Positions 1,265 through 43,476 of a DNA stretch of 44,654 nt are shown piece after piece. Source of the stretch: a virus; the IMG/VR virus record IMGVR_UViG_3300020468_000015, positions 1-44,654 of that record. One strand, written 5' to 3'. Position numbers and translations under genes: made by a program. The number at the start of each line of letters is the position of its first letter. The first letter of the stretch is position 1. The notes beneath the pieces were generated by a model, which saw nothing but the letters and a program-made list of their open reading frames with translations, did not search any database and was not told where the DNA came from.

Positions 1265-1283
1265 AGAACGACGCAGTCGTTCT
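1265..1283. terminator. Perfect hairpin between convergent genes
   Basis: AGAACGAC-GCA-GTCGTTCT forms an 8-bp perfect stem with a 3-nt loop. It lies exactly where a plus-strand gene ending at 1255 meets a minus-strand gene ending at 1283. It has no long T-run on either strand. It may therefore act as a bidirectional transcription barrier or as an mRNA 3'-end stabiliser rather than a classical intrinsic terminator. Confidence 0.5.
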
Positions 1284-1885
1284 TAAACATTAGGATCAAA
1301 CTGTTCACAATCCAACCACAAACTCTTATCTGGGTCTGCACTCTGAACATAGCGGAGTTTTGTGTGACTCCAATCTCTAACTTCTAATTCTTCCAACACA
1401 CTTTGTTGATACACATGAATCACTTTGGGATCCATCTTTAAAATTTTTTTAACGGCGTCCCTGTCAGGACGTGACTCATAAGTCTGAATGGTGGTGACAT
1501 TTGGCATCTTGGAAAAATCTCTGGCATACTTGTCTCCGCGGAGCCACGTGAGTGGCCCTACATCTTTACTCATCAGTTTGAGTTCGTCCGCTTTGTGTCG
1601 CCAGTGTATGTTGTTTTCGCCAAATCCCAACTCCACAAGTCTGTCATAGGTCTTGGAACCTACTGCATAAATTTTTTGTTCTAGTAATTTTTTGAGACTG
1701 TGTTTGTAATGATTGACGGATTCGATGTGTGTGATAATTAAGCCTTGCGGCTTGGCGGGATCATGGTCCACTGTATAAGTCTTCATACAGGGTATCCAAA
1801 TATCATCTCCGTTTAGTTCCGCAGGTTTGGTGATTTGCGTGTATACTTGCATAGGTGTATTATTTAGAACAGGTGGTTTCATCAT
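1283..1885 (-). CDS. Uroporphyrinogen-III synthase-like (HemD-fold) protein
   Basis: A 200-residue protein (189 if it starts at Met12, base 1852). The pattern follows the HEM4/HemD family. There is an N-terminal ITKP (family T-R-P) at 18-21 and a strand (LIITHIESVNHY) where the family has its S-x-x-A-V segment. Next comes KIYAVGSKTYDRLVELG (71-87), matching the I-x-A-V-G-x-x-T-A-x-x-L helix start. Then TWLRGDKYARDF (113-124) matches the L-L-x-R-G-x-x-A-R-D motif, followed by VTTIQTYESRP (130-140) where HemD has its V-x-Y-E/Q linker, and KVIHVYQQSVLEEL (154-167) in place of the D-x-V-x-F-T-S strand. HemD cyclises hydroxymethylbilane to uroporphyrinogen III. It is shorter than typical HemD (about 240-270 aa), mainly at the C-terminus, so catalysis is not assured. 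It is the last gene of a minus-strand set after gene 26. A CTAAATA box on the minus strand (1867-1861) lies 8 nt before Met12. Confidence 0.62.
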   Translation of the reverse strand: MMKPPVLNNTPMQVYTQITKPAELNGDDIWIPCMKTYTVDHDPAKPQGLIITHIESVNHYKHSLKKLLEQKIYAVGSKTYDRLVELGFGENNIHWRHKADELKLMSKDVGPLTWLRGDKYARDFSKMPNVTTIQTYESRPDRDAVKKILKMDPKVIHVYQQSVLEELEVRDWSHTKLRYVQSADPDKSLWLDCEQFDPNV

Positions 1886-3165: not shown

Positions 3166-5361
3166 ATGGCAGATTTAACACCAGATCAATTGGATGCATT
3201 GGCAAAGGGCATAGCCGCCTCAGGCATTGCTCAGGAAACCACACTTAAAGCATTGGTAAAAGCACTGGGCGGAAGCACAGGTATGGCGGCAGTGGCGCAA
3301 GCCACAGGCAAGACTGCCAAAGAAATGAAAACTGTGGGATCATACTTAGAAGACCTCAGTGAAGATTTAGAAGAAACAAGCACAGGATTAAACAAATATG
3401 CCAAACTACAGAATTCAATTAATATAGGTGTTACTTTAGCCACAGGCAAATTAAACGATTTAGGAAGTACAGTAAGAGTTGCCACTGGACAAATGGGAAT
3501 ATTTGGACAAAGTGTTGGATACGCGGCAAGTACACTTTTAGATGCATTGGCTGACAATGTGGATTTCTACAGACAACTTTCAACTGTGGGTGCAACAGCA
3601 GGGCAAAGCATTAGTGACTTGAGACGAGTGTCTGGATTAACAGGACTAACAATGGGACAACTTACTCAAGCAGTTGCGGCGGCACAAGGAAATCTCGCTT
3701 TACTAGGTGGTACCGCTGGTCAAGGATTTCAAAGATTTTCTCAAGCACTTATAGAATTATCACAAGGTGAAACATTCGAAAAATTAACTGGTCTAGGATT
3801 TACAATGGATAGAATCGCCGAAGGTGCAGGTGAATATTTAGAAATTCAAACTCAATTAGGCAGAACACAAACAATGACTTCAAGAGACCTTGCCTCTGGT
3901 GCGGATGAATATCTAACTAACCTCGACTTGTTGACAAGACTGACAGGAAAAAATAGAGATATGTTGGCACAAGAGATGAAACAAAACGCCGCTGACAATA
4001 GATTGAAAATACAAATGGCAGGTATGGATCAAAAACAACAAGCAGTAATACAAAGAGCATTGTCATTAACAGACAAAGGTTCACAAGAACTTGGACAATC
4101 GTTGAGAAATTTAATTGCAACAGGCGGAATTCCTACAAATGCAAGAGAGGCTGGTATTATGCAGTTGCAAGGATTCAGTGAAGCACTAGATAGAGTAAGC
4201 AGAGGTGAGTCCGGCTCAGTAGAACAGTTGATGTCTGTGTTCCAAACAGCGGCACTAGAAACAGGAAATTTAAGTGCAGAAGAAAGACAAAGATTTGCAC
4301 AATTAAAACAATTCGGCGTAGACTTCTTTGATGTTAGATTTGAAACTATTGCATTTAAAAATGCTTTAGGAGATTTACAACAAGTGACTGAAGAACAAAA
4401 GAAAGCACAAGAAGCCGCAGGTACATCTGCTCTACAATTTGACAGAGCAACACAAAGATTAAGAACAGCATTCGCGGCAGTGTTGGCTCCGGCAACAACA
4501 TTAATAGCAAAAGCATTTGAAGGTATCGCATTCGTACTAGAAGGATTAGGCAGTATGGTATCGTCTGTCACTGAAAAACTTGGAGAGATGGGTGGAGCAG
4601 TTGTAGGCATACTTGGTTTACTAGGAGTAGGAGCAGGCGGAGCCTTTTTAACAAAACAGGCTGGTAAAGGTTTATCTACTGCTGGTTCATATCTCACAGG
4701 CGGTGGTGCCGGTGGTGGTACGGTATCTAAATTAGGAGCAGGCGTTGGCGGACTTGCCAGAGGAGTAGGTAGAGGTGCAGGCGCAATATTTTCTGCTTTA
4801 GGAAGAGCATTAGGCGGATTGGCTAATCCCAAAATTTTATTAGGTGCTTCAATTCTAGCAGGATCCATTGCAGTCTTAGGAGCAGGTATTGCCGGTGCAA
4901 CATATCTAATGGGTGGTGCATTAGAAAAGTTTTCAGTGGGTATGGAATCCATCACCAACATAGATGGTTCGGCACTAAAAGATACAGCAAGTGGTTTGAA
5001 AACATTGGCAGGTGCAATGGTAGACATGGGAAGTGCCACAAGTTCATCAGCAACAGGCTTTTTTGGAAAACTTTTTGGCGGTGGACCAGAAAACTTTGCC
5101 AAAAGTGTCAATGCAACGTTAGATTCTCTTGACAAAGGCAAAATAGATATGTATGCTAACAGTTTAAGCAATCTTGGAGAAGCAATGAACAGTTTGAATA
5201 CAGGAATGTCAGGCACAATCACAACTTCCGCAACTGAAACAGGAAACAAGTTGGATAAGTTAAATACTACTATGGAGCAAGTTTTAATGATGATGGGCGA
5301 GAACAACAAGTTTGCTAAGAACGTATCAGATAATACAAAAGTTGTAGCGGATAATACATAA
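3166..5361 (+). CDS. Probable tail tape-measure-like / virion internal protein
   Basis: A 731-residue protein, mostly alpha-helical and Gln/Ala/Gly-rich, with long amphipathic stretches (about residues 50-450). Two hydrophobic Gly/Ala segments follow, near residues 476-496 (GGAVVGILGLLGVGAGGAFL) and 559-587. This combination of long helical body and late hydrophobic segments is typical of phage tape-measure proteins, which span the tail tube and set its length. At about 1.5 Angstrom per residue it would match a tail of roughly 110 nm, as in T4-like phages. It overlaps the portal gene by 1 nt. In T4 and cyanophages the gene before 20 is normally 19 (tail tube), so this position is unusual. I do not recognise a diagnostic motif; another internal virion protein is possible. 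Confidence 0.55.
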   Translation: MADLTPDQLDALAKGIAASGIAQETTLKALVKALGGSTGMAAVAQATGKTAKEMKTVGSYLEDLSEDLEETSTGLNKYAKLQNSINIGVTLATGKLNDLGSTVRVATGQMGIFGQSVGYAASTLLDALADNVDFYRQLSTVGATAGQSISDLRRVSGLTGLTMGQLTQAVAAAQGNLALLGGTAGQGFQRFSQALIELSQGETFEKLTGLGFTMDRIAEGAGEYLEIQTQLGRTQTMTSRDLASGADEYLTNLDLLTRLTGKNRDMLAQEMKQNAADNRLKIQMAGMDQKQQAVIQRALSLTDKGSQELGQSLRNLIATGGIPTNAREAGIMQLQGFSEALDRVSRGESGSVEQLMSVFQTAALETGNLSAEERQRFAQLKQFGVDFFDVRFETIAFKNALGDLQQVTEEQKKAQEAAGTSALQFDRATQRLRTAFAAVLAPATTLIAKAFEGIAFVLEGLGSMVSSVTEKLGEMGGAVVGILGLLGVGAGGAFLTKQAGKGLSTAGSYLTGGGAGGGTVSKLGAGVGGLARGVGRGAGAIFSALGRALGGLANPKILLGASILAGSIAVLGAGIAGATYLMGGALEKFSVGMESITNIDGSALKDTASGLKTLAGAMVDMGSATSSSATGFFGKLFGGGPENFAKSVNATLDSLDKGKIDMYANSLSNLGEAMNSLNTGMSGTITTSATETGNKLDKLNTTMEQVLMMMGENNKFAKNVSDNTKVVADNT

Positions 5362-7073
5362 TGAGTTGGAAAAAATTTTTTAGTGAAGTACCAGTTGCAG
5401 GAGCATCTGATGGTACATATTCAGCAATGGGCGGTGGTATAGGAGGCAAACCTGGACCAGCACGTTCTAACTATTCATCATATCTTCCAGATGTGTACAG
5501 TGGTGCACCAAACAGAATAGAAAGATATGGACAATACAATGTAATGGATATGGACAGTGAGGTTAATGCCGCACTTGATATTCTTGCAGAATTTTGTACA
5601 CAGAACAACACACAAAACAACACTCCATTCAAATTCACTTACAATCAGAAAGCAACAAACACAGAAGTACAGATTATTGAACAATACTTGCATCAGTGGT
5701 GCAAATTAAATGATCTAAACAAAAGAATTTTTAAAGTAATGCGTAATGTATTCAAATATGGTGATGCATTCTTTATAAGAGACCCAGAAACAAAAAAATT
5801 ATTTCATGTTGACCCAGCAAAAGTTTCAAAAATAATTGTAAACGAAAGTACAGGCAAAACTCCTGAACAATATGTGGTCAGAGACATCAACTTTAACTTT
5901 AGAAGCCTTGTAGCAACAACTCCATATCAAACAACTGGTAATGTTACAGGTGGAGGATCAGGATATTTAACAGGTGGTGTTAGAGGTATGGTAGGTGCAA
6001 ACTATCAAGACTCACCAGGAACAAGATTTGCAACAGGACAAAGAGAAATTGCTGTTGATTCCAAACATATGTTCCATTTAAGTTTAAGTGAAGGTCTAGA
6101 TTTGAATTTTCCATTTGGAAACAGTTTGTTAGAAAGTGTTTTTAAAGTATACAAACAAAAAGAATTACTAGAAGATGCAATTATAATTTACAGAGTACAA
6201 AGAGCACCTGAACGTAGAGTGTTTTACATTGACGTAGGTAATATGCCATCACACTTGGCAATGCAATTTGTAGAAAGAGTTAAGACAGAAATACACCAAA
6301 GACGTATTCCGTCAAGCACAGGTGGTGGTACAAACGTAATTGATTCAAGTTATAATCCATTATCAATCAATGAAGATTATTTCTTCCCACAAACAGCAGA
6401 AGGTAGAGGTTCTAAAGTAGAAACATTACCAGGTGGTACTAACTTAGGTGAGATTGATGACCTGAAATACTTTACAAATAAACTATTAAGAGGTTTACGT
6501 ATACCAAGTTCTTATTTGCCAACAGGTGCAGATGATGGACAAAGCCAATACAATGATGGTAGAGTAGGCACAGCATACATTCAAGAATTAAGATTCAACA
6601 AATACTGTGAAAGATTACAAAACATGGTATCAAATGAATTCAATCAAGAGTTTAAACAGTATTTGATAGAAAAAGGTGTAAACATTGATATAGCAATGTT
6701 TGATATCAAGTTTAATCCACCAATGAACTTTGCTTCATACAGACAAGCAGAGGTGGATAACAATAGAATTTCTACTTACACACAAATTGCTCAGGTTCCA
6801 TTTGTGAGCAAACGTTATGCACTTTCAAGATTCTTAGGATTAACTCCAGAAGAAATGGCGGAAAACGAAAGATTGTGGAGAGAAGAAAACGATGCAACCA
6901 CACAGGCTAAACCTACAACATCAGCAACAGAGTTAAGAAGTGCAGGAGTTAGCACAGCAGGTATTCAAGCAGACTTAGATGCGGCTGAACCAGAAGCACC
7001 AGCAACTGAACCAGGTGCAGAACCAGGAGCAGACACTCCACCAGACGCAGGCACTACAACTCCAGGGGCCTAA
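5361..7073 (+). CDS. 20: Portal vertex protein gp20
   Basis: A 570-residue protein with typical gp20 features. The N-terminus has RIERYGQYNVMDMDSEVN followed by ALDILAEFCTQ. The middle has YRVQRAPERRVFYIDVGNMP followed by YFTNKLLRGLRIPSSYLP and the C-terminal RFNKYCERLQNMVSNEF. gp20 forms the 12-subunit ring at one capsid vertex, through which DNA is packaged and to which the tail attaches. The start shares one base with the previous stop (TAATG), implying coupling. The last 50 residues are Pro/Glu/Ala-rich and probably disordered (AEPEAPATEPGAEPGA). Confidence 0.95.
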   Translation: MSWKKFFSEVPVAGASDGTYSAMGGGIGGKPGPARSNYSSYLPDVYSGAPNRIERYGQYNVMDMDSEVNAALDILAEFCTQNNTQNNTPFKFTYNQKATNTEVQIIEQYLHQWCKLNDLNKRIFKVMRNVFKYGDAFFIRDPETKKLFHVDPAKVSKIIVNESTGKTPEQYVVRDINFNFRSLVATTPYQTTGNVTGGGSGYLTGGVRGMVGANYQDSPGTRFATGQREIAVDSKHMFHLSLSEGLDLNFPFGNSLLESVFKVYKQKELLEDAIIIYRVQRAPERRVFYIDVGNMPSHLAMQFVERVKTEIHQRRIPSSTGGGTNVIDSSYNPLSINEDYFFPQTAEGRGSKVETLPGGTNLGEIDDLKYFTNKLLRGLRIPSSYLPTGADDGQSQYNDGRVGTAYIQELRFNKYCERLQNMVSNEFNQEFKQYLIEKGVNIDIAMFDIKFNPPMNFASYRQAEVDNNRISTYTQIAQVPFVSKRYALSRFLGLTPEEMAENERLWREENDATTQAKPTTSATELRSAGVSTAGIQADLDAAEPEAPATEPGAEPGADTPPDAGTTTPGA

Positions 7074-10839: not shown

Positions 10840-12000
10840 ATGTCAGAACTAACAGAAACTCGCTGGCAGGATACAAAGAGTGCGTTATTAGAAGGCCTAA
10901 CTGGTAATAAAAAAGCAGTTATGGAGTCGACTTTAGAAAATACTAAAAAGTATTTGGCTGAGGCGGCAACAGCAGGTGCTACATCTGCCGGTAACGTTGC
11001 AACTTTGAACAGAGTGATCCTACCGGTGATCAGAAGGGTTATGCCTACTGTGATCGCAAACGAAATCGTTGGTGTACAACCAATGACAGGTCCAGTTGGA
11101 CAAATCCACACTCTAAGAGTACGTTACGCAGAAGCGAACGACAACGTGGCGGCTGGTGAAGAAGCACTTTCACCTTTCAAAATCGGTACTGCATATTCAG
11201 GTGCTGGTACAGATCCAGATGGTACTGCAGATGCAACAGCAACTAAAGAAGGTACTGGTGGTAGAGCAATGTCAATCCAAATCTTGAAACAAACAGTTGA
11301 AGCAAAAACTCGTAAGTTACAAGCAAGATGGACATTTGAGTCGGCACAAGATGCACAAGCACAACAAGGGATCGACGTTGAGGCTGAGATAATGGCGGCA
11401 TTAGCACAAGAAATAACTGCTGAAATCGACCAAGAAATCTTAGGTTCATTAAGATCATTAGCGGCAACTGAAGAAACATTCAACCAAGCGGCAGTATCAG
11501 GTACGGCAACATTCGTAGGTGATGAACACGCGGCTTTGGCTGTTTTAATCAACAGAACTGCTAATAAAATTGCACAAAGAACAAGACGTGGTGCAGGTAA
11601 CTGGGCTGTGGTATCACCACAGGCTTTAACTGTACTTCAATCTGCAACAACTTCAGCGTTCGCAAGAACAACTGAAGGTTCTTTTGAAGCGCCAACTAAC
11701 CAAAAATTTGTTGGTACTTTGAACAGTGCGATGAAAATCTACGTTGACACATACCAAGCAGACAACGGTGCTGTATTAGTAGGTTACAAAGGCTCATCTG
11801 AAGCAGATGCGGCGGCGTTCTACTGTCCATACATTCCGTTAATGTCAAGCGGTGTTGTTCTTGACCCATCGACTTTCGAACCAGTTGTATCTTTTATGAC
11901 AAGATACGGCTATGTAGAATTGTCGAACACAGCGTCTTCACTAGGTAATGCTGGTGACTACGTGGGTGAAGTAGCGATGTCAAACATTTCATTTGCGTAA
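10840..12000 (+). CDS. 23: Major capsid protein gp23
   Basis: A 386-residue HK97-fold capsid protein. The start at 10840 is preferred to an upstream in-frame ATG at 10792 because AAAAAGGAG (10822-10830) lies directly before it and the upstream start would overlap gene 22. Family segments are NRVILPVIRRVMPTVIANEIVGVQPM, read here in two parts (to TVIA and from NEIVG), and WAVVSPQALTVLQS. The predicted gp21 cut is after Glu41 in KKYLAE, giving a mature protein of about 345 residues. T4 gp23 is 521 residues and cyanophage versions about 450-470, so this is short and probably has reduced surface insertion domains. A strong terminator follows. Confidence 0.95.
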   Translation: MSELTETRWQDTKSALLEGLTGNKKAVMESTLENTKKYLAEAATAGATSAGNVATLNRVILPVIRRVMPTVIANEIVGVQPMTGPVGQIHTLRVRYAEANDNVAAGEEALSPFKIGTAYSGAGTDPDGTADATATKEGTGGRAMSIQILKQTVEAKTRKLQARWTFESAQDAQAQQGIDVEAEIMAALAQEITAEIDQEILGSLRSLAATEETFNQAAVSGTATFVGDEHAALAVLINRTANKIAQRTRRGAGNWAVVSPQALTVLQSATTSAFARTTEGSFEAPTNQKFVGTLNSAMKIYVDTYQADNGAVLVGYKGSSEADAAAFYCPYIPLMSSGVVLDPSTFEPVVSFMTRYGYVELSNTASSLGNAGDYVGEVAMSNISFA

Positions 12001-12300: not shown

Positions 12301-12528
12301 ATGAAATGGTTGGTCATATATTTTTATCTATCAGGTGTTTGGGTAGCAGGTGATTTTGTACATCCTGAAGGGTGGAGCAGTATCCAATATGCTACCGAAA
12401 AAGAATGCATAGAACATATGGGTTATGCCAATGAAAACCTCCAAAAAAGTGACCAATTTCATGACAATGCCAAAGCAGTTTGCTTGGCACATAAGCCAGA
12501 TTTATTCACTCCAGCACCAAAATTTTAG
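12301..12528 (+). CDS. Small secreted-type protein with two conserved-looking cysteines
   Basis: A 75-residue protein with a hydrophobic N-terminus (WLVIYFYLSGVWVAG) that may be a signal peptide or membrane anchor. Cysteines occur at KECIEHM and KAVCLAHK, about 26 residues apart. Small proteins with a hydrophobic start, a tyrosine-rich middle and a C...C pair are common in marine T4-like phages, without known function. No Shine-Dalgarno is visible; a TTAAATA box (12289-12295) ends 5 nt before the ATG. The 3' end contains the start of the next gene's promoter region. Confidence 0.6.
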   Translation: MKWLVIYFYLSGVWVAGDFVHPEGWSSIQYATEKECIEHMGYANENLQKSDQFHDNAKAVCLAHKPDLFTPAPKF

Positions 12529-12566: not shown

Positions 12567-12767
12567 ATGAAACATATCATGACAATGTTACTAGCATTCT
12601 TATTAGTGTCTGCTTGTTCAATTCCAAAAAATCCAAAAGTTTCTTTTGGAAAAAAATGTATGGTAAAAGACGAAAGTGTCAGTTACTCTTACGTTTGGTT
12701 GTATGACAAGAACACAGGATTACCTGCATCAGCAGAACAGTGTGAAGCATTACCTAAGAAAGACTAG
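12567..12767 (+). CDS. Small lipoprotein
   Basis: A 66-residue protein with a bacterial lipoprotein signal. MKHIMTMLLAFLL is followed by lipobox V-S-A-C, with the lipidated Cys at residue 17. The mature part is a short polar peptide (KKCMVKDESVSYSYVWLYDK) with two further cysteines. Phage-encoded small lipoproteins often act in superinfection exclusion or in masking surface receptors (for example T5 Llp); that role is only a candidate here. Its own sigma70 promoter inside a late region is typical of a moron. The transcript would be nearly leaderless. hemB begins 2 nt after its stop, so the two are co-transcribed. Confidence 0.78.
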   Translation: MKHIMTMLLAFLLVSACSIPKNPKVSFGKKCMVKDESVSYSYVWLYDKNTGLPASAEQCEALPKKD

Positions 12768-12769
12768 TA

Positions 12770-13579
12770 ATGGAACTAATCCAGCCTATCTTTGTAAACC
12801 AATCTGGCTCTACTAGAGAGGCTGGTTTGGGAATAGACAATTCAAGTTATTCCCAAACAGATATCATCCAAAGAATACAAAAAGACGTTGATCTAGGCAT
12901 TGACAGTTTTCTATTATTCATAACACCTGACACAAAAACTTGGCTACCTACATGGGACTTTCAGGCAGAAGTTGTTAACAAAATAAAAAACAAATTTCCA
13001 AAAATACAATTAATTGTAGATGTATGTTTGTGTTCAACTTTGCCAGACGGACATTGTAGAGTGATAGACAAACCTGATACTAGTGAGAATCTTTTAATTG
13101 ATCTAGGAAGAAAATTAGAAACAGCAGGTGCTGATGTATTGGCTCCCAGCGATATGGGTGACAACACAGTGAGAAACTTAAAACAAGAAACTAAAAAAGA
13201 AGTAATGGCATACGTAAAATGGAGAAGTGTGTTTTACAGTTCATTCAGAGACCTTGCACAAAGCAGTCCTACAAGTGGACGTTCATATCAACTTCCTGTT
13301 GACAATGCATTTGGAATGGTGGCAACTGCCAATCAATACAAGAGTCAAAAAGCAGATTATATAATTTTAAAACCTGCACAACACAGTTTAAATGACATCA
13401 GTTTAATAAGATCAAATATGTACATACCAGTAGGATTATATCAAGTATCAGATGAATACAGAGGATTGCCAAGCCTTCAACATCAGATAGAATTGTGTCA
13501 AGTCTACCGTAGATCAGGTGCAAATTTCCTTGTGACATATGGTGCCAGAGATATTAAGGAGCATTGGAAAAATGACTGA
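12770..13579 (+). CDS. hemB: Delta-aminolevulinate dehydratase (porphobilinogen synthase)
   Basis: A 269-residue HemB that condenses two 5-aminolevulinates to porphobilinogen, the second committed tetrapyrrole step. Family motifs in order: LIQPIFV (3-9); DVDLGIDSFLLF (39-50); the metal site DVCLCSTLPDGHC with Cys86, Cys88 and Cys96 spaced as in the zinc type; GADVLAPSDM (120-129); Schiff-base Lys150 in MAYVKW; FYSSFRD (155-161); GRSYQLPVDNA (170-180); catalytic Lys201 in IILKPA; YQVSDEY (224-230); GANFLVTYGARD (250-261). All catalytic and zinc residues appear present. It lacks about 30 N-terminal residues (the arm that joins subunits in octamers). An in-frame TAA at 12755-12757 rules out a longer start. 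It lies in a sigma70-driven set with a lipoprotein and a coiled-coil gene. Confidence 0.9.
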   Translation: MELIQPIFVNQSGSTREAGLGIDNSSYSQTDIIQRIQKDVDLGIDSFLLFITPDTKTWLPTWDFQAEVVNKIKNKFPKIQLIVDVCLCSTLPDGHCRVIDKPDTSENLLIDLGRKLETAGADVLAPSDMGDNTVRNLKQETKKEVMAYVKWRSVFYSSFRDLAQSSPTSGRSYQLPVDNAFGMVATANQYKSQKADYIILKPAQHSLNDISLIRSNMYIPVGLYQVSDEYRGLPSLQHQIELCQVYRRSGANFLVTYGARDIKEHWKND

Positions 13580-13847
13580 CAGTGAAGCACTATTAAAAGA
13601 ATACAATGATTACAAAGATCGTATAGAAGTATGGAAAAAACAGCACGGAATATTCTACAACGATATTAAAAAATTAGAAGATTCAGTGGACAAAATGATG
13701 GACAAAAGGTCAGATGTACTCATAGACTACCGCAGAACAAAGAAACAAAGATACCTAGATGAAGCAAACGAAATACTTCAAAACGTCATAAATCACATAA
13801 AAAAGTTCTCAAAAGTGGAACTATTGGCATCACTCAGCAAACGATAA
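13572..13847 (+). CDS. Coiled-coil protein downstream of hemB, function unknown
   Basis: A 91-residue, highly charged, all-helical protein with heptad-like spacing (ALLKEYNDYKDRIEVWKKQ, then IKKLEDSVDKMMDKRSDVLIDY). The start at 13572 is chosen because AAGGAG (13556-13561) lies 10 nt before it; a longer in-frame start at 13539 would overlap hemB more. It overlaps hemB by 8 nt, so translation is probably coupled. The stop overlaps the late promoter core at 13844. I do not recognise a family; an oligomerising partner of HemB or an unrelated structural protein are both possible. Confidence 0.65.
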   Translation: MTDSEALLKEYNDYKDRIEVWKKQHGIFYNDIKKLEDSVDKMMDKRSDVLIDYRRTKKQRYLDEANEILQNVINHIKKFSKVELLASLSKR

Positions 13848-38115: not shown

Positions 38116-39078
38116 ATGGCTAGTTTAAAATCATTACTAGGAAGTAAGCAAGACGCATTCGTATCTGTCACCGAAGAAAATTTGGAAAAAGGCAGAATTT
38201 ACGTTTACACTCCTGGAACTAACTACTCAAGACTCTGGTGCGGATTTTGTTTCCATCCAGATACATCAGGTACAGCGGTAGTAGAAGTTTGGGGTGCTGG
38301 CGGATCAGGCGCTGAAATGTGTTGTTGTGGTTTTGGTACACCTGGAAATGCAGGTGCTTATGTACGTAAAACAGTTTCTATGGCTCCAGGAGATTTCATT
38401 TGTGGATACATTGGACAATCTTGTGGTAACGCAACTTCGTTATGTTTTAGAGGTTGTTCAGAAGCAACTCAAGTTAGATTTTGCTTAGGTGGAACAGAGA
38501 CTTGCGTTTGTGCAGAAGGTGGTAAAGGTGGATTAACTTATTGTTCAACTAGTCCTTCATATTATTGTTGTTACAGAGCAAATGGTTTCTGTGTAACAAG
38601 AACAAACAATGACAACTGTGGAATTGTTTGTAACCAGTGTAGCGGTTCATGGATAGCGTGTGCATATGGTGGAGATGTTAACTGTCCAGGAAAAATTTCA
38701 TGTGTATCAGCATTTGGCTGTTACCCATCATGCGTATGTATGTTTATTGATCACGTTCCAACTCCGGCTGGAATGTTTTCTAAAGAAGGCGCAATGATTT
38801 CTTATACAAGAGAAAACGACAATGACTTTGCTCAATGGTCAGGTTCAGGTCACCACCAACACTTAGGTGTACTTGGATCAGGAAGATTCCCAAGAGGTGG
38901 TATACCTTTTGCAACTTGTTGGGGAGCGAGTAAGGCTTGTGGTTGTTATGAAAATGATGGTTGTGTACCTGTTATGCCTATTGGAACAGGTGGTAGAGGA
39001 CCTAACCCTTGTCCAGGTGTTAGAGATCACGCAATCAGAGGTGGACACGGTGGTGTCAGAATAAGGTTTACGGCTTAA
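38116..39078 (+). CDS. Cysteine/glycine-rich virion-type protein 1
   Basis: A 320-residue protein with about 30 cysteines (9%), extreme for a protein made in a reducing cytoplasm. The N-terminal domain contains VEVWGAGGSGAEMCCCGFG and GNAGAYVRKTVSMAPGDF, resembling the Gly-rich W-G-A-G-G domain of phage fibre tips. The middle has repeated C-C, C-x-C and G-G-x-G-G motifs (CVCAEGGKGG, YYCCYRANGFC). The C-terminus is ACGCYENDGC, then PNPCPGVRDHAIRGGHGG. It has no signal peptide. Two tandem paralogues follow. The cysteines could bind metal, form disulfides after lysis, or rigidify a surface spike. Confidence 0.72.
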   Translation: MASLKSLLGSKQDAFVSVTEENLEKGRIYVYTPGTNYSRLWCGFCFHPDTSGTAVVEVWGAGGSGAEMCCCGFGTPGNAGAYVRKTVSMAPGDFICGYIGQSCGNATSLCFRGCSEATQVRFCLGGTETCVCAEGGKGGLTYCSTSPSYYCCYRANGFCVTRTNNDNCGIVCNQCSGSWIACAYGGDVNCPGKISCVSAFGCYPSCVCMFIDHVPTPAGMFSKEGAMISYTRENDNDFAQWSGSGHHQHLGVLGSGRFPRGGIPFATCWGASKACGCYENDGCVPVMPIGTGGRGPNPCPGVRDHAIRGGHGGVRIRFTA

Positions 39079-39087
39079 GGAGATATT

Positions 39088-40104
39088 ATGGCAAGTTTAA
39101 CAACATTACTTCAAACCAAATATGATTTCGTAGTAGGAAATGAAACTAACCTTGAAAAAGGTAGAATTTATCAATACGCATCATTCTCAAGCAGACAGAT
39201 GAATTTCAGATGTCACGTTTGTTGGGTTGCACCATCAGATGGTACAGCAACTATTGAAATTTGGGGTGCTGGTGGATCTGGTGCTGAAATGTGTTGTTGT
39301 GGTTTTGGAATTGCAGGAAACCCAGGTGCATATTCTAAAAAAGTAATTACAATGGCTGAAGGTTGTTTCATTTGTTCAATACTTGGTATGCCATGCAGAA
39401 ACGAAGACGATTTATGTTTTAGAGGTTGCGGTGAACCAACTCAAGTATGTTGGTTTGGTAATGCTGGTGGCGACGGTTGTATGTGTGTTCAAGGTGGAAT
39501 GGGTGGTAGATCATACTGTTCTACAGGTAACTCACCATACTGTTGTTTCGTAGCAGGCGGCTTCTGTCATACACAAGGCGGTGACCAATACTGCGGTATT
39601 ATTTGTAATTTTAAAGATGCTAGTGCAAACCCAGAATTTTGTGCTCAAGCATATGGAGGTGATGTAAACTGTTACGGTGGTTTCAGTTGTACATCTTGGA
39701 GAGGTTGCAGAGTTAACTGTAACTGTAGACGTGTAGAAGTTTCTAAATTCCCTCCAGGAATGATTTCAACATTAGGTGGTGAAGTACACTACACAATGGA
39801 CGAAAACTCAGGAAGATCAGATTGGTCTGGAATGGGTGGTTGGATGAACGCATCACATGGTTATAACTTGGCAACAAGATCACCTACAAGAGGTGGACCA
39901 TACACTGCTTGTTGGACAGGTAACAGAAGTTGCGGTTGTTATCAAGCAAACGGAAGAAATCCATTTATGCCAGCAGGCTTAGGTGGTCAAGGACCAACAC
40001 CGTGCGATGGTGTAAGAGATCACGCACACATGGGTGGCCCTGGAATGATAAGAATTAAATTTATAAGTACAACAAACGATTACGATTTACCAAGTGCACC
40101 GTAA
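39088..40104 (+). CDS. Cysteine/glycine-rich virion-type protein 2
   Basis: A 338-residue paralogue of the preceding gene with about 29 cysteines, most aligned: EIWGAGGSGAEMCCCGFG, CFRGCGEPTQVC, YCCFVAGGFC, CGIICNF, CGCYQANG and PTPCDGVRDHAHMGG. The last third is more different, with WSGMGGWMNASHGYN in the variable stretch and an extra acidic tail. It starts 9 nt after the first copy with AAGGAG as ribosome site, so the genes are co-transcribed. Confidence 0.72.
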   Translation: MASLTTLLQTKYDFVVGNETNLEKGRIYQYASFSSRQMNFRCHVCWVAPSDGTATIEIWGAGGSGAEMCCCGFGIAGNPGAYSKKVITMAEGCFICSILGMPCRNEDDLCFRGCGEPTQVCWFGNAGGDGCMCVQGGMGGRSYCSTGNSPYCCFVAGGFCHTQGGDQYCGIICNFKDASANPEFCAQAYGGDVNCYGGFSCTSWRGCRVNCNCRRVEVSKFPPGMISTLGGEVHYTMDENSGRSDWSGMGGWMNASHGYNLATRSPTRGGPYTACWTGNRSCGCYQANGRNPFMPAGLGGQGPTPCDGVRDHAHMGGPGMIRIKFISTTNDYDLPSAP

Positions 40105-40126: not shown

Positions 40127-41098
40127 ATGGCAAGTTTAAAAGGATTACTTACTGTTAGAAACCCAGCAGAGATGGTTGAAGACAACCTAGAAACTGGTTA
40201 TATCTATTCATGGACTCCTGGAACTAACTACACAAATTTCTGTAATGGTGTCTGTTGGACTGCAAAAGCCAACGGTACAGCAATTATTGAGGCTTGGGGA
40301 GCAGGTGGTTCAGGTGCTAGAATGTGTTGTTGTGGTGACGGATTACCAGGCAATGCAGGTGCTTATGTTAAAAAAACAATCACAGTAGAAACAGGTGACA
40401 CAATGACAGGCTGTACAGGTATGGCTTGTTATGCACACCCACTATGTCACTCAGGATGTTCAGATCCAACTATGTTATGTTGGGTAACAGCAAATAACGG
40501 AAATGGTTGTATTTGTGCAAGAGGTGGTTACGGTGGTAAAACTATGTGTACAACAGGAAGTTCTTTATACTGTTGTTTCAGAGCACAAGGTTTCTGTACT
40601 GTAAGATGTAATAATGATAATTGTGGAATGGTTTGTAACTGGTGTAACGGTGCTTGGGAGGCACTAGGATACGGCGGTGATACAGGTAAAAACTGTTGCG
40701 GTCAATTATCATGTTCAAGTTTCTTCGGATGTTGCCCACACTGTAAATGTTATTTCCAACAGCACGTGGCAACCCCAGCAGGTTTATTTGCTGAAAATGG
40801 AGCACTTATAACGTTTAACAAAGAATCAGACGGTACGCCAATGTCGCAATGGTCAGGTAACCAATTATTCCAGTTCTATGCGGCACTTAACTTGGCTACT
40901 AAATCTCCATATCAAGGTAACCCATTAAGTTACTGTTGGAGATCAGATAGATCTTGTGGTTGTTATGAAATGCAAGGATGTAACAATTACCTACCTGTGG
41001 GAACAGGCGGTATTGGTCCAAACCCTTGTCCAGAAGTAAGAGATCACGGAATTAGAGGTGGATTTGGTGGAATAAGAATCAAGTTCCAACCATCATAA
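40127..41098 (+). CDS. Cysteine/glycine-rich virion-type protein 3
   Basis: A 323-residue paralogue with about 32 cysteines, the highest of the three. Shared blocks are EAWGAGGSGARMCCCGDG, GNAGAYVKKTITVETGD, YCCFRAQGFC, CGMVCNWC, SCGCYEMQGC and PNPCPEVRDHGIRGGFGG. Copy-specific cysteine pairs occur at KNCCGQLSC and GCCPHCKC. The region between about 215 and 275 is most variable among the three and may be the exposed part. AAAAAGGAG lies before the start, with a GTAAATATAG sequence in between. Confidence 0.72.
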   Translation: MASLKGLLTVRNPAEMVEDNLETGYIYSWTPGTNYTNFCNGVCWTAKANGTAIIEAWGAGGSGARMCCCGDGLPGNAGAYVKKTITVETGDTMTGCTGMACYAHPLCHSGCSDPTMLCWVTANNGNGCICARGGYGGKTMCTTGSSLYCCFRAQGFCTVRCNNDNCGMVCNWCNGAWEALGYGGDTGKNCCGQLSCSSFFGCCPHCKCYFQQHVATPAGLFAENGALITFNKESDGTPMSQWSGNQLFQFYAALNLATKSPYQGNPLSYCWRSDRSCGCYEMQGCNNYLPVGTGGIGPNPCPEVRDHGIRGGFGGIRIKFQPS

Positions 41099-42525: not shown

Positions 42526-43476
42526 ATGACAGAAAATAAAAGACCTAAGGCTTTTTTTCTTAATGGTGGAATGGGTAGAATTATATCTGCAATCCCTGCC
42601 TTGGAAAAATATCAAGAAGCAAACACAGATCCTGACTTTATAATTGTAATAGAAGGAATATGTGACATACTAAATGGACATCCAACACTGGATGGAAAAA
42701 CTTATGATATGTATCATAAGAATTTATTTCATACAAAATTAGTAAACATGGATATTGTAAGTCCAGAACCATACAGAGTAAATGAATATTTCAATCAAAA
42801 ATGTAGTATTGCCCAAGCATTTGATATTCTTATTAACAAGCAAGGAGTAAGAGATTTACCTAAACCAACTTTAGTTTTAAGTAAAGAAGAATTATTGTAC
42901 GCCAGAAAAGCCATAGACGAAATAAAAGAAAAAACAAAGAAAGAAAAAGTTGTAATAATACAACCATTCGGACGTGCTATAAAACAAATAGACAATTCTT
43001 TTGTTGATGCAAGTAATCGTAGTATAGAGTTTCATAACTTAAAAAACATGATACGTAAATTAATGAAAAAAGACTTTGCAGTTGTGCTTATGTCTGAATT
43101 TGGAATAGATTTTAAAGATGCAGGTTTTCAAGATGAGGTTGCACTACCTGAAAAAGTAACTTTAAGACAATGGGCAGGCATAATAAAATATGCAGATGTA
43201 TTTTTAGGTTGTGATTCAGTTGGTCAACATTTAGCATATGCCGTTGATACTCCAGCAAATGTTGTGTTGGGTGCAACATACCCTGAAAACACTTCATATC
43301 CTGATGTAAAAAATTTTAATATAATTGATTTAGGACAAATGACAAGAGAATATGATCCTATAAGAATAAGTTATGATGAAAGAATTAGTAGAAAAAATGA
43401 AACTATTATGAGCATGACTCCAGAAATAGAAGATTATGTGGTATCAGCAGTAAACGGTGATCCAATTGAGGAATAA
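42526..43476 (+). CDS. Glycosyltransferase family 9-like (heptosyltransferase-like) protein
   Basis: A 316-residue protein of GT-B pattern. The N-terminal GGMGRIISAIPALEKYQE (14-31) matches the G-x-G-D-x-x-x-x-x-P-x-L start of ADP-heptose transferases. The second half has VVIIQPFGR (143-151), LRQWAGIIKYADVFLGCDSVGQHLAYAVDTPANVVLG (approximately residues 215-251, two adjoining segments), which fits the D-S-G-x-x-H-x-A-x-A-x-x-x-P-x-x-x-x-x-G signature with Val-Gly-Gln in place of the usual residues. Such enzymes add sugars to lipopolysaccharide cores. Here the target could be host surface glycans, virion proteins or small molecules. A carbamoyltransferase gene follows 3 nt later, suggesting a common pathway. 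No ribosome site is visible. Confidence 0.7.
   Translation: MTENKRPKAFFLNGGMGRIISAIPALEKYQEANTDPDFIIVIEGICDILNGHPTLDGKTYDMYHKNLFHTKLVNMDIVSPEPYRVNEYFNQKCSIAQAFDILINKQGVRDLPKPTLVLSKEELLYARKAIDEIKEKTKKEKVVIIQPFGRAIKQIDNSFVDASNRSIEFHNLKNMIRKLMKKDFAVVLMSEFGIDFKDAGFQDEVALPEKVTLRQWAGIIKYADVFLGCDSVGQHLAYAVDTPANVVLGATYPENTSYPDVKNFNIIDLGQMTREYDPIRISYDERISRKNETIMSMTPEIEDYVVSAVNGDPIEE

Follow-up and report, generated by a model that had tools for sequence, protein, structure and literature searches.

A T4-like phage fragment encodes a porphobilinogen synthase-type HemB from a virus-only family without the N-terminal arm

Results

The DNA analysed here, referred to as the window, comes from a virus and is a linear fragment of 44,654 bases with T4-type genes: a gp26-like hub, the portal gp20, the protease gp21, a scaffold-position gene, the capsid protein gp23 and long fibre-like genes. 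By inspection, a gp46-like fragment lies at its left end. The gene for the major capsid protein gp23 (10840..12000, + strand; phrog_138, E 5e-101) is followed by two small open reading frames (ORFs). The first, a conserved ORF of 75 amino acids (12301..12528, +), is also found in loci L001 and L002 and has no family match. The second (12567..12767, +; 66 amino acids; also in L001, L002 and L003) encodes a putative small lipoprotein, judged from an LVSACS-type motif, and ends 2 nucleotides before the ATG of hemB (12770..13579, +), which encodes a protein of 269 amino acids. The start codon of the next gene (13572..13847, +; the ORF is also listed from 13539) overlaps the hemB stop. This companion encodes a small helical protein with no family match above cut-off. 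The order gp21, gp22, gp23, hemB, companion and fibre genes is shared by the capsid-linked loci, the window included. Towards the right end of the window, three tandem paralogues (38116-39078, 39088-40104 and 40127-41098), of which the first matches phrog_4205, are rich in cysteine and glycine, which is unusual for a phage protein. A glycosyltransferase-9-like gene (42526-43476) adjoins a carbamoyltransferase gene (PF02543; 43480-44652, +) that runs off the end.

The capsid protein of the window is 66-70% identical to those of large T4-like phages, for example Vibrio phage 2.275; these phages infect Vibrio, Sinorhizobium, Pseudomonas, Cronobacter and others. A link to SAR11, touched on in the sequence-only reading, and a SAR11 host are not supported: the capsid shares just 38% identity with its counterpart in the SAR11 pelagimyophage HTVC008M. 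The portal is 32% identical, and hemB is absent from HTVC008M.

The identity of HemB rests on profile and fold matches. The protein matches the Pfam ALAD profile PF00490 (E 4.5e-43; 148 bits, cut-off 24.6) over profile positions 26-315 of 317, starting at HemB residue 2. NCBIfam PRK09283 matches at 4e-38; that this falls under the cut-off for full-length proteins is unsurprising for a member that is short and divergent. The AlphaFold2 model has a pLDDT of 94.7 and a pTM of 0.93, and all 50 Foldseek matches listed are porphobilinogen synthases, with TM scores of up to 0.94 (query) and up to 0.79 (targets). Its solved relatives are all porphobilinogen synthases; the model aligns to the E. coli (1B4E) and human (5HMS) enzymes with TM scores of 0.92-0.94. 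Profile, model and structural matches thus agree with the proposal, made before from the sequence, of a HemB in a T4-like phage.

The N-terminus of the protein is the first barrel strand. The frame upstream reads TAA-GAA-AGA-CTA-GTA-ATG, with the TAA (12755..12757, +) 5 codons upstream of the start and no alternative start in between, which excludes an N-terminal arm exactly as had been read from the sequence. The dN/dS of hemB, 0.05-0.20 over nine relatives, indicates strong purifying selection. Together with the 47 distinct viral homologues, in which the short N-terminus and the active site are both retained, this excludes a chance ORF or a pseudogene.

Successive scans of viral contig proteins yielded 5, 15 and 133 relatives; from the last of these sets, the 80 best were retained. 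The resulting family set has 84 viral loci, including the window, and 47 distinct complete proteins. No viral locus encodes the arm: the start codon ATG coincides with the first barrel strand or precedes it by a dozen codons or so at most. In cellular HemBs, the N-terminus is longer by a median of 28 residues (n=87), and among the matches listed from 400 genomes of one bacterial phylum every HemB frame has at least 324 codons. Two ways in which an arm could have been hidden were considered and rejected. In the L192 group, an in-frame extension of about 37 codons is, by inspection, an overlapping small-lipoprotein gene read out of frame, and it lacks the R-x-RR-x-R motif. Extending the profile alignment upstream through the TAA codons in relatives gained almost no score.

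Among the matches listed, the viral HemBs are at most about 42% identical to cellular HemBs, and a closer cellular relative may exist beyond these. Trees were built from 26 viral and 60-67 cellular HemBs, as quick trees with SH-aLRT support. The viral HemBs fall on one side of a single branch with a support of 100 and, in one tree, a length of 1.16 changes per column; no sampled cellular HemB is close to the viral clade. The phylogeny called for in the sequence-only reading places the viral proteins in one clade; a single long branch with full support sets it apart from all sampled cellular HemBs and gives neither a date nor a donor for a transfer from host to phage. The family is absent from 50,697 annotated phage records, apparent bacterial DNA aside, and PHROGs has no family for phage HemB or for the HemD-like proteins described below. 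The hemB matches in GenBank phage records of Listeria, Staphylococcus, Salmonella, Escherichia and Acinetobacter look like bacterial DNA and were set aside; most are short or unannotated contigs, and one has hemB amid ordinary bacterial genes. The phage-labelled records OR847202, OR848617, OR851529, OR845814 and CAKLQH020000030 carry an apparently ordinary bacterial hemB and are likely mislabelled host DNA. In phages this variant of HemB is widespread, and it has gone unannotated there.

Residues were compared, in E. coli numbering, in an alignment of the 47 distinct viral and 90 cellular HemBs. The two Schiff-base lysines, Lys150 (E. coli Lys195; 13217..13219, +) and Lys201 (E. coli Lys247; 13370..13372, +), are present in 47/47 viral and 90/90 cellular proteins. 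The cysteines of the site C86-x-C88-x7-C96 (13025..13057, +) are invariant in the 47 viral HemBs, and by this C-x-C-x7-C site the window protein is classed as zinc-type. All five residues had been cited correctly in the sequence-only reading. Cys120, Cys122, Cys130, Lys195, Arg205, Gln220, Lys247 and Tyr312 are kept in every viral HemB and Ser273 in all but one (46/47). Arg216 is not in place, and an arginine stands at the next position, aligned with 217, in 47/47. The viral lid is shorter, without the conserved Gly-Asp, and loops near the C-terminus are also shortened. The arm arginines are found in none of the 47 viral HemBs, compared with 85-89 of the 90 cellular ones, and Glu232 in none compared with 85 of 90. 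The position of Asp236 is Tyr or Phe in all viral HemBs and Asp in all cellular ones. We take Glu232 and Asp236 to be the positions of the allosteric magnesium ligands which, with the arm, are part of an octamer-specific magnesium site. The allosteric magnesium site has been linked to the octamer (PMC7729013, PMC535902). Having neither the arm nor the magnesium ligands, the viral HemBs do not, by their sequences, qualify as octameric HemBs with allosteric magnesium.

The companion, so far undescribed, has about 90-107 amino acids across loci and a conserved C-terminus (FSKVELLASLSKR); its reading frame begins within or right at the hemB stop. It directly follows hemB in all 65 capsid-linked loci in which both neighbours are visible, a count that includes many near-copies; the loci belong to marine and freshwater phages. 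In a sample of 80 relatives of the window capsid gene, the sequence downstream is long enough in 41 to establish the absence of hemB; the companion was found in none of these 41, and a fibre gene was found in 31 of the 80. Since the companion tracks the presence and absence of hemB, the two genes behave as an accessory cassette.

Other members of the family lie in haem-pathway operons. In L224, hemF, hemC, hemE and hemB follow one another (3321-6852), and the last three frames overlap. Contig G037 (L271, L272) has the same hemF-hemC-hemE-hemB operon with alaS, and contig G022 (L268, L270) has hemF overlapping hemB, with alaS and a HemD-like gene. The AlaS, HemC and HemF assignments are confirmed by NCBIfam, with one of the two HemF proteins slightly under its cut-off. 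For HemE, the best NCBIfam match is under cut-off and Pfam URO-D is over it. These IMG/VR contigs carry phage replication genes (helicase, primase and DNA ligase). The presence of AlaS, HemC, HemE and HemF on phage contigs with family members ties the family to real tetrapyrrole synthesis. Searches of the window and the longest of its close relatives, all of which are fragments, gave no ALA synthase, HemC, HemE or HemF. The operon-type HemBs (L187, L208, L171 and L218) have neither arm nor companion.

The window has a second gene of possible relevance to this pathway. An ORF of 200 amino acids (1283..1885, - strand), downstream of the gp26-like baseplate hub gene, matches the HEM4 profile with 16.7 bits, under the curated cut-off of 27.5, and 12 of 20 relatives have weak HEM4 matches (best E 1.9e-5). 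In its structural model (pLDDT 81.6), the ten best PDB fold matches are all to HemD, a protein with a two-domain fold, with a best E of 1.9e-5 and TM scores of only 0.36-0.51. The ORF is conserved in at least 46 viral loci (dN/dS 0.05-0.22), and several contigs have both a HemD-like gene and hemB. It is likely, though not proven, to be a uroporphyrinogen III synthase. HemD as a certain identity was dropped and only the label HemD-fold is used, because the HEM4 match is under cut-off. T4 gp51, considered from the gene 26-51 order, was rejected: the HTVC008M protein annotated as hub assembly catalyst has 45 amino acids. No significant similarity to the ORF was found in the HTVC008M genome. A comparison of HemB and HemD profiles showed no relation. 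No heme oxygenase was found in the lineage of the window. One phage contig that also has a HemD-like gene (G059) encodes a heme oxygenase (L306; 692-1165, -; PF01126, E 1e-21).

Discussion

We consider it probable that the HemB of the window is catalytically active, a zinc-type porphobilinogen synthase from an arm-less subfamily specific to phages, and that it acts as an always-on small oligomer that raises tetrapyrrole flux. During infection, the enzyme would condense two molecules of 5-aminolevulinate to porphobilinogen and so raise the flux into host, and partly phage, tetrapyrrole synthesis. With no arm-stabilised octamer possible and the allosteric magnesium site lost, it would most likely be a small oligomer, such as a dimer, that is always on. 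The translationally coupled partner of about 100 amino acids may stabilise or position it. We infer the activity, the oligomeric state, the lack of regulation, the role of the partner and the benefit to the phage from the features described above. In studied porphobilinogen synthases, secure closure of the active-site lid depends on octamer contacts (PMC7729013), and in a native gel of the Rhodobacter capsulatus enzyme the two smallest bands were inactive (PMC535902). An arm-less enzyme could therefore be weak; the phage HemB presumably must close its lid without octamer contacts or use its partner.

A dependence on the partner is the basis of a second explanation, in which the companion replaces the arm in trans, in lid closure or assembly, and the two genes make a hetero-oligomer. 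The position of the companion after hemB in 65/65 resolvable capsid-linked loci, its absence from the 41 hemB-less relatives and the overlapping or abutting reading frames speak for such a complex. However, the operon-type HemBs do without both arm and companion, so that at least part of the family has no need of the companion, and we regard an obligate two-gene enzyme as unlikely.

Somewhat less likely still is a changed role, in which HemB would bind 5-aminolevulinate or porphobilinogen or interfere with the host HemB, with no useful catalysis, as a structural or regulatory product of the late cluster. A place between capsid and fibre genes is unusual for a metabolic gene, and the parts for octamer-stabilised lid closure are missing. 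Yet the catalytic and metal residues are near-invariant over very divergent members, and relatives lie in genuine haem operons. A recently captured, decaying host hemB with a lost 5' end, to which only the short start and the missing arm would point, is very improbable given that the arm is missing from all family members, that dN/dS is 0.05-0.20, that identity to cellular HemBs is at most about 42% among the matches listed and that viral monophyly has a support of 100.

The preferred reading, an active and octamer-free enzyme, can be extended tentatively to the pathway. Aquatic phages could possibly encode most of a deregulated pathway of their own that leads from glycine and succinyl-CoA to the porphyrin stage, with AlaS, HemB, HemC, a HemD-like protein, HemE and HemF distributed over lineages, in which HemB would be a virus-evolved minimal porphobilinogen synthase that works without an octamer and has a small helical partner in the capsid-linked lineages.

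Known phage genes touch this route at several points. AlaS genes of the Shemin pathway have been published for aquatic phages, with hemB unmentioned (PMC11480375). The viral AlaS is a different enzyme, one step upstream of HemB, and in two phages alaS shares a contig with a member of the hemB family. A coproporphyrinogen oxidase and a porphobilinogen deaminase are noted in a passage on a 'deep ecotype' of pelagimyophages (PMC7029224); these genes are possibly part of the same kind of operon as in L224 and G037 (hemF, hemC); hemB and hemE are not named there. Phage-encoded ferrochelatases are known too (PMC9599517). In the main texts of the open-access papers searched, no account of a phage hemB was found, which is weak evidence of novelty. 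The remark in the sequence-only reading that no arm-less phage HemB was known still stands, none having been found described, and arm-lessness proves to be common to the whole phage family. The findings take the viral share in haem synthesis beyond the published AlaS step to most of the pathway.

Compared with cellular zinc-type HemB/ALAD (1B4E, 5HMS), the phage HemB has in common the TIM-barrel, the Schiff-base lysines, the C-x-C-x7-C site and the substrate residues. In contrast to cellular HemB, it lacks the arm, the arm arginines, Glu232 and Asp236, and several loops are shortened; it is about 22-28% identical to the solved cellular structures. Porphobilinogen synthase is a textbook case of control by an oligomer switch, in descriptions of which the lid needs the arm and the octamer to close securely. 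With a family that naturally has no arm and keeps its active site intact, this requirement becomes directly testable. The porphobilinogen synthase of R. capsulatus is a natural enzyme that has no allosteric magnesium site, as is the phage HemB, and it does not form the usual octamer (PMC535902), as is probably true of the phage HemB. However, the R. capsulatus enzyme is reported to be a hexamer that needs no metal, and its model has N-terminal arms (PMC535902), whereas the phage HemB is arm-less and keeps the zinc cysteines.
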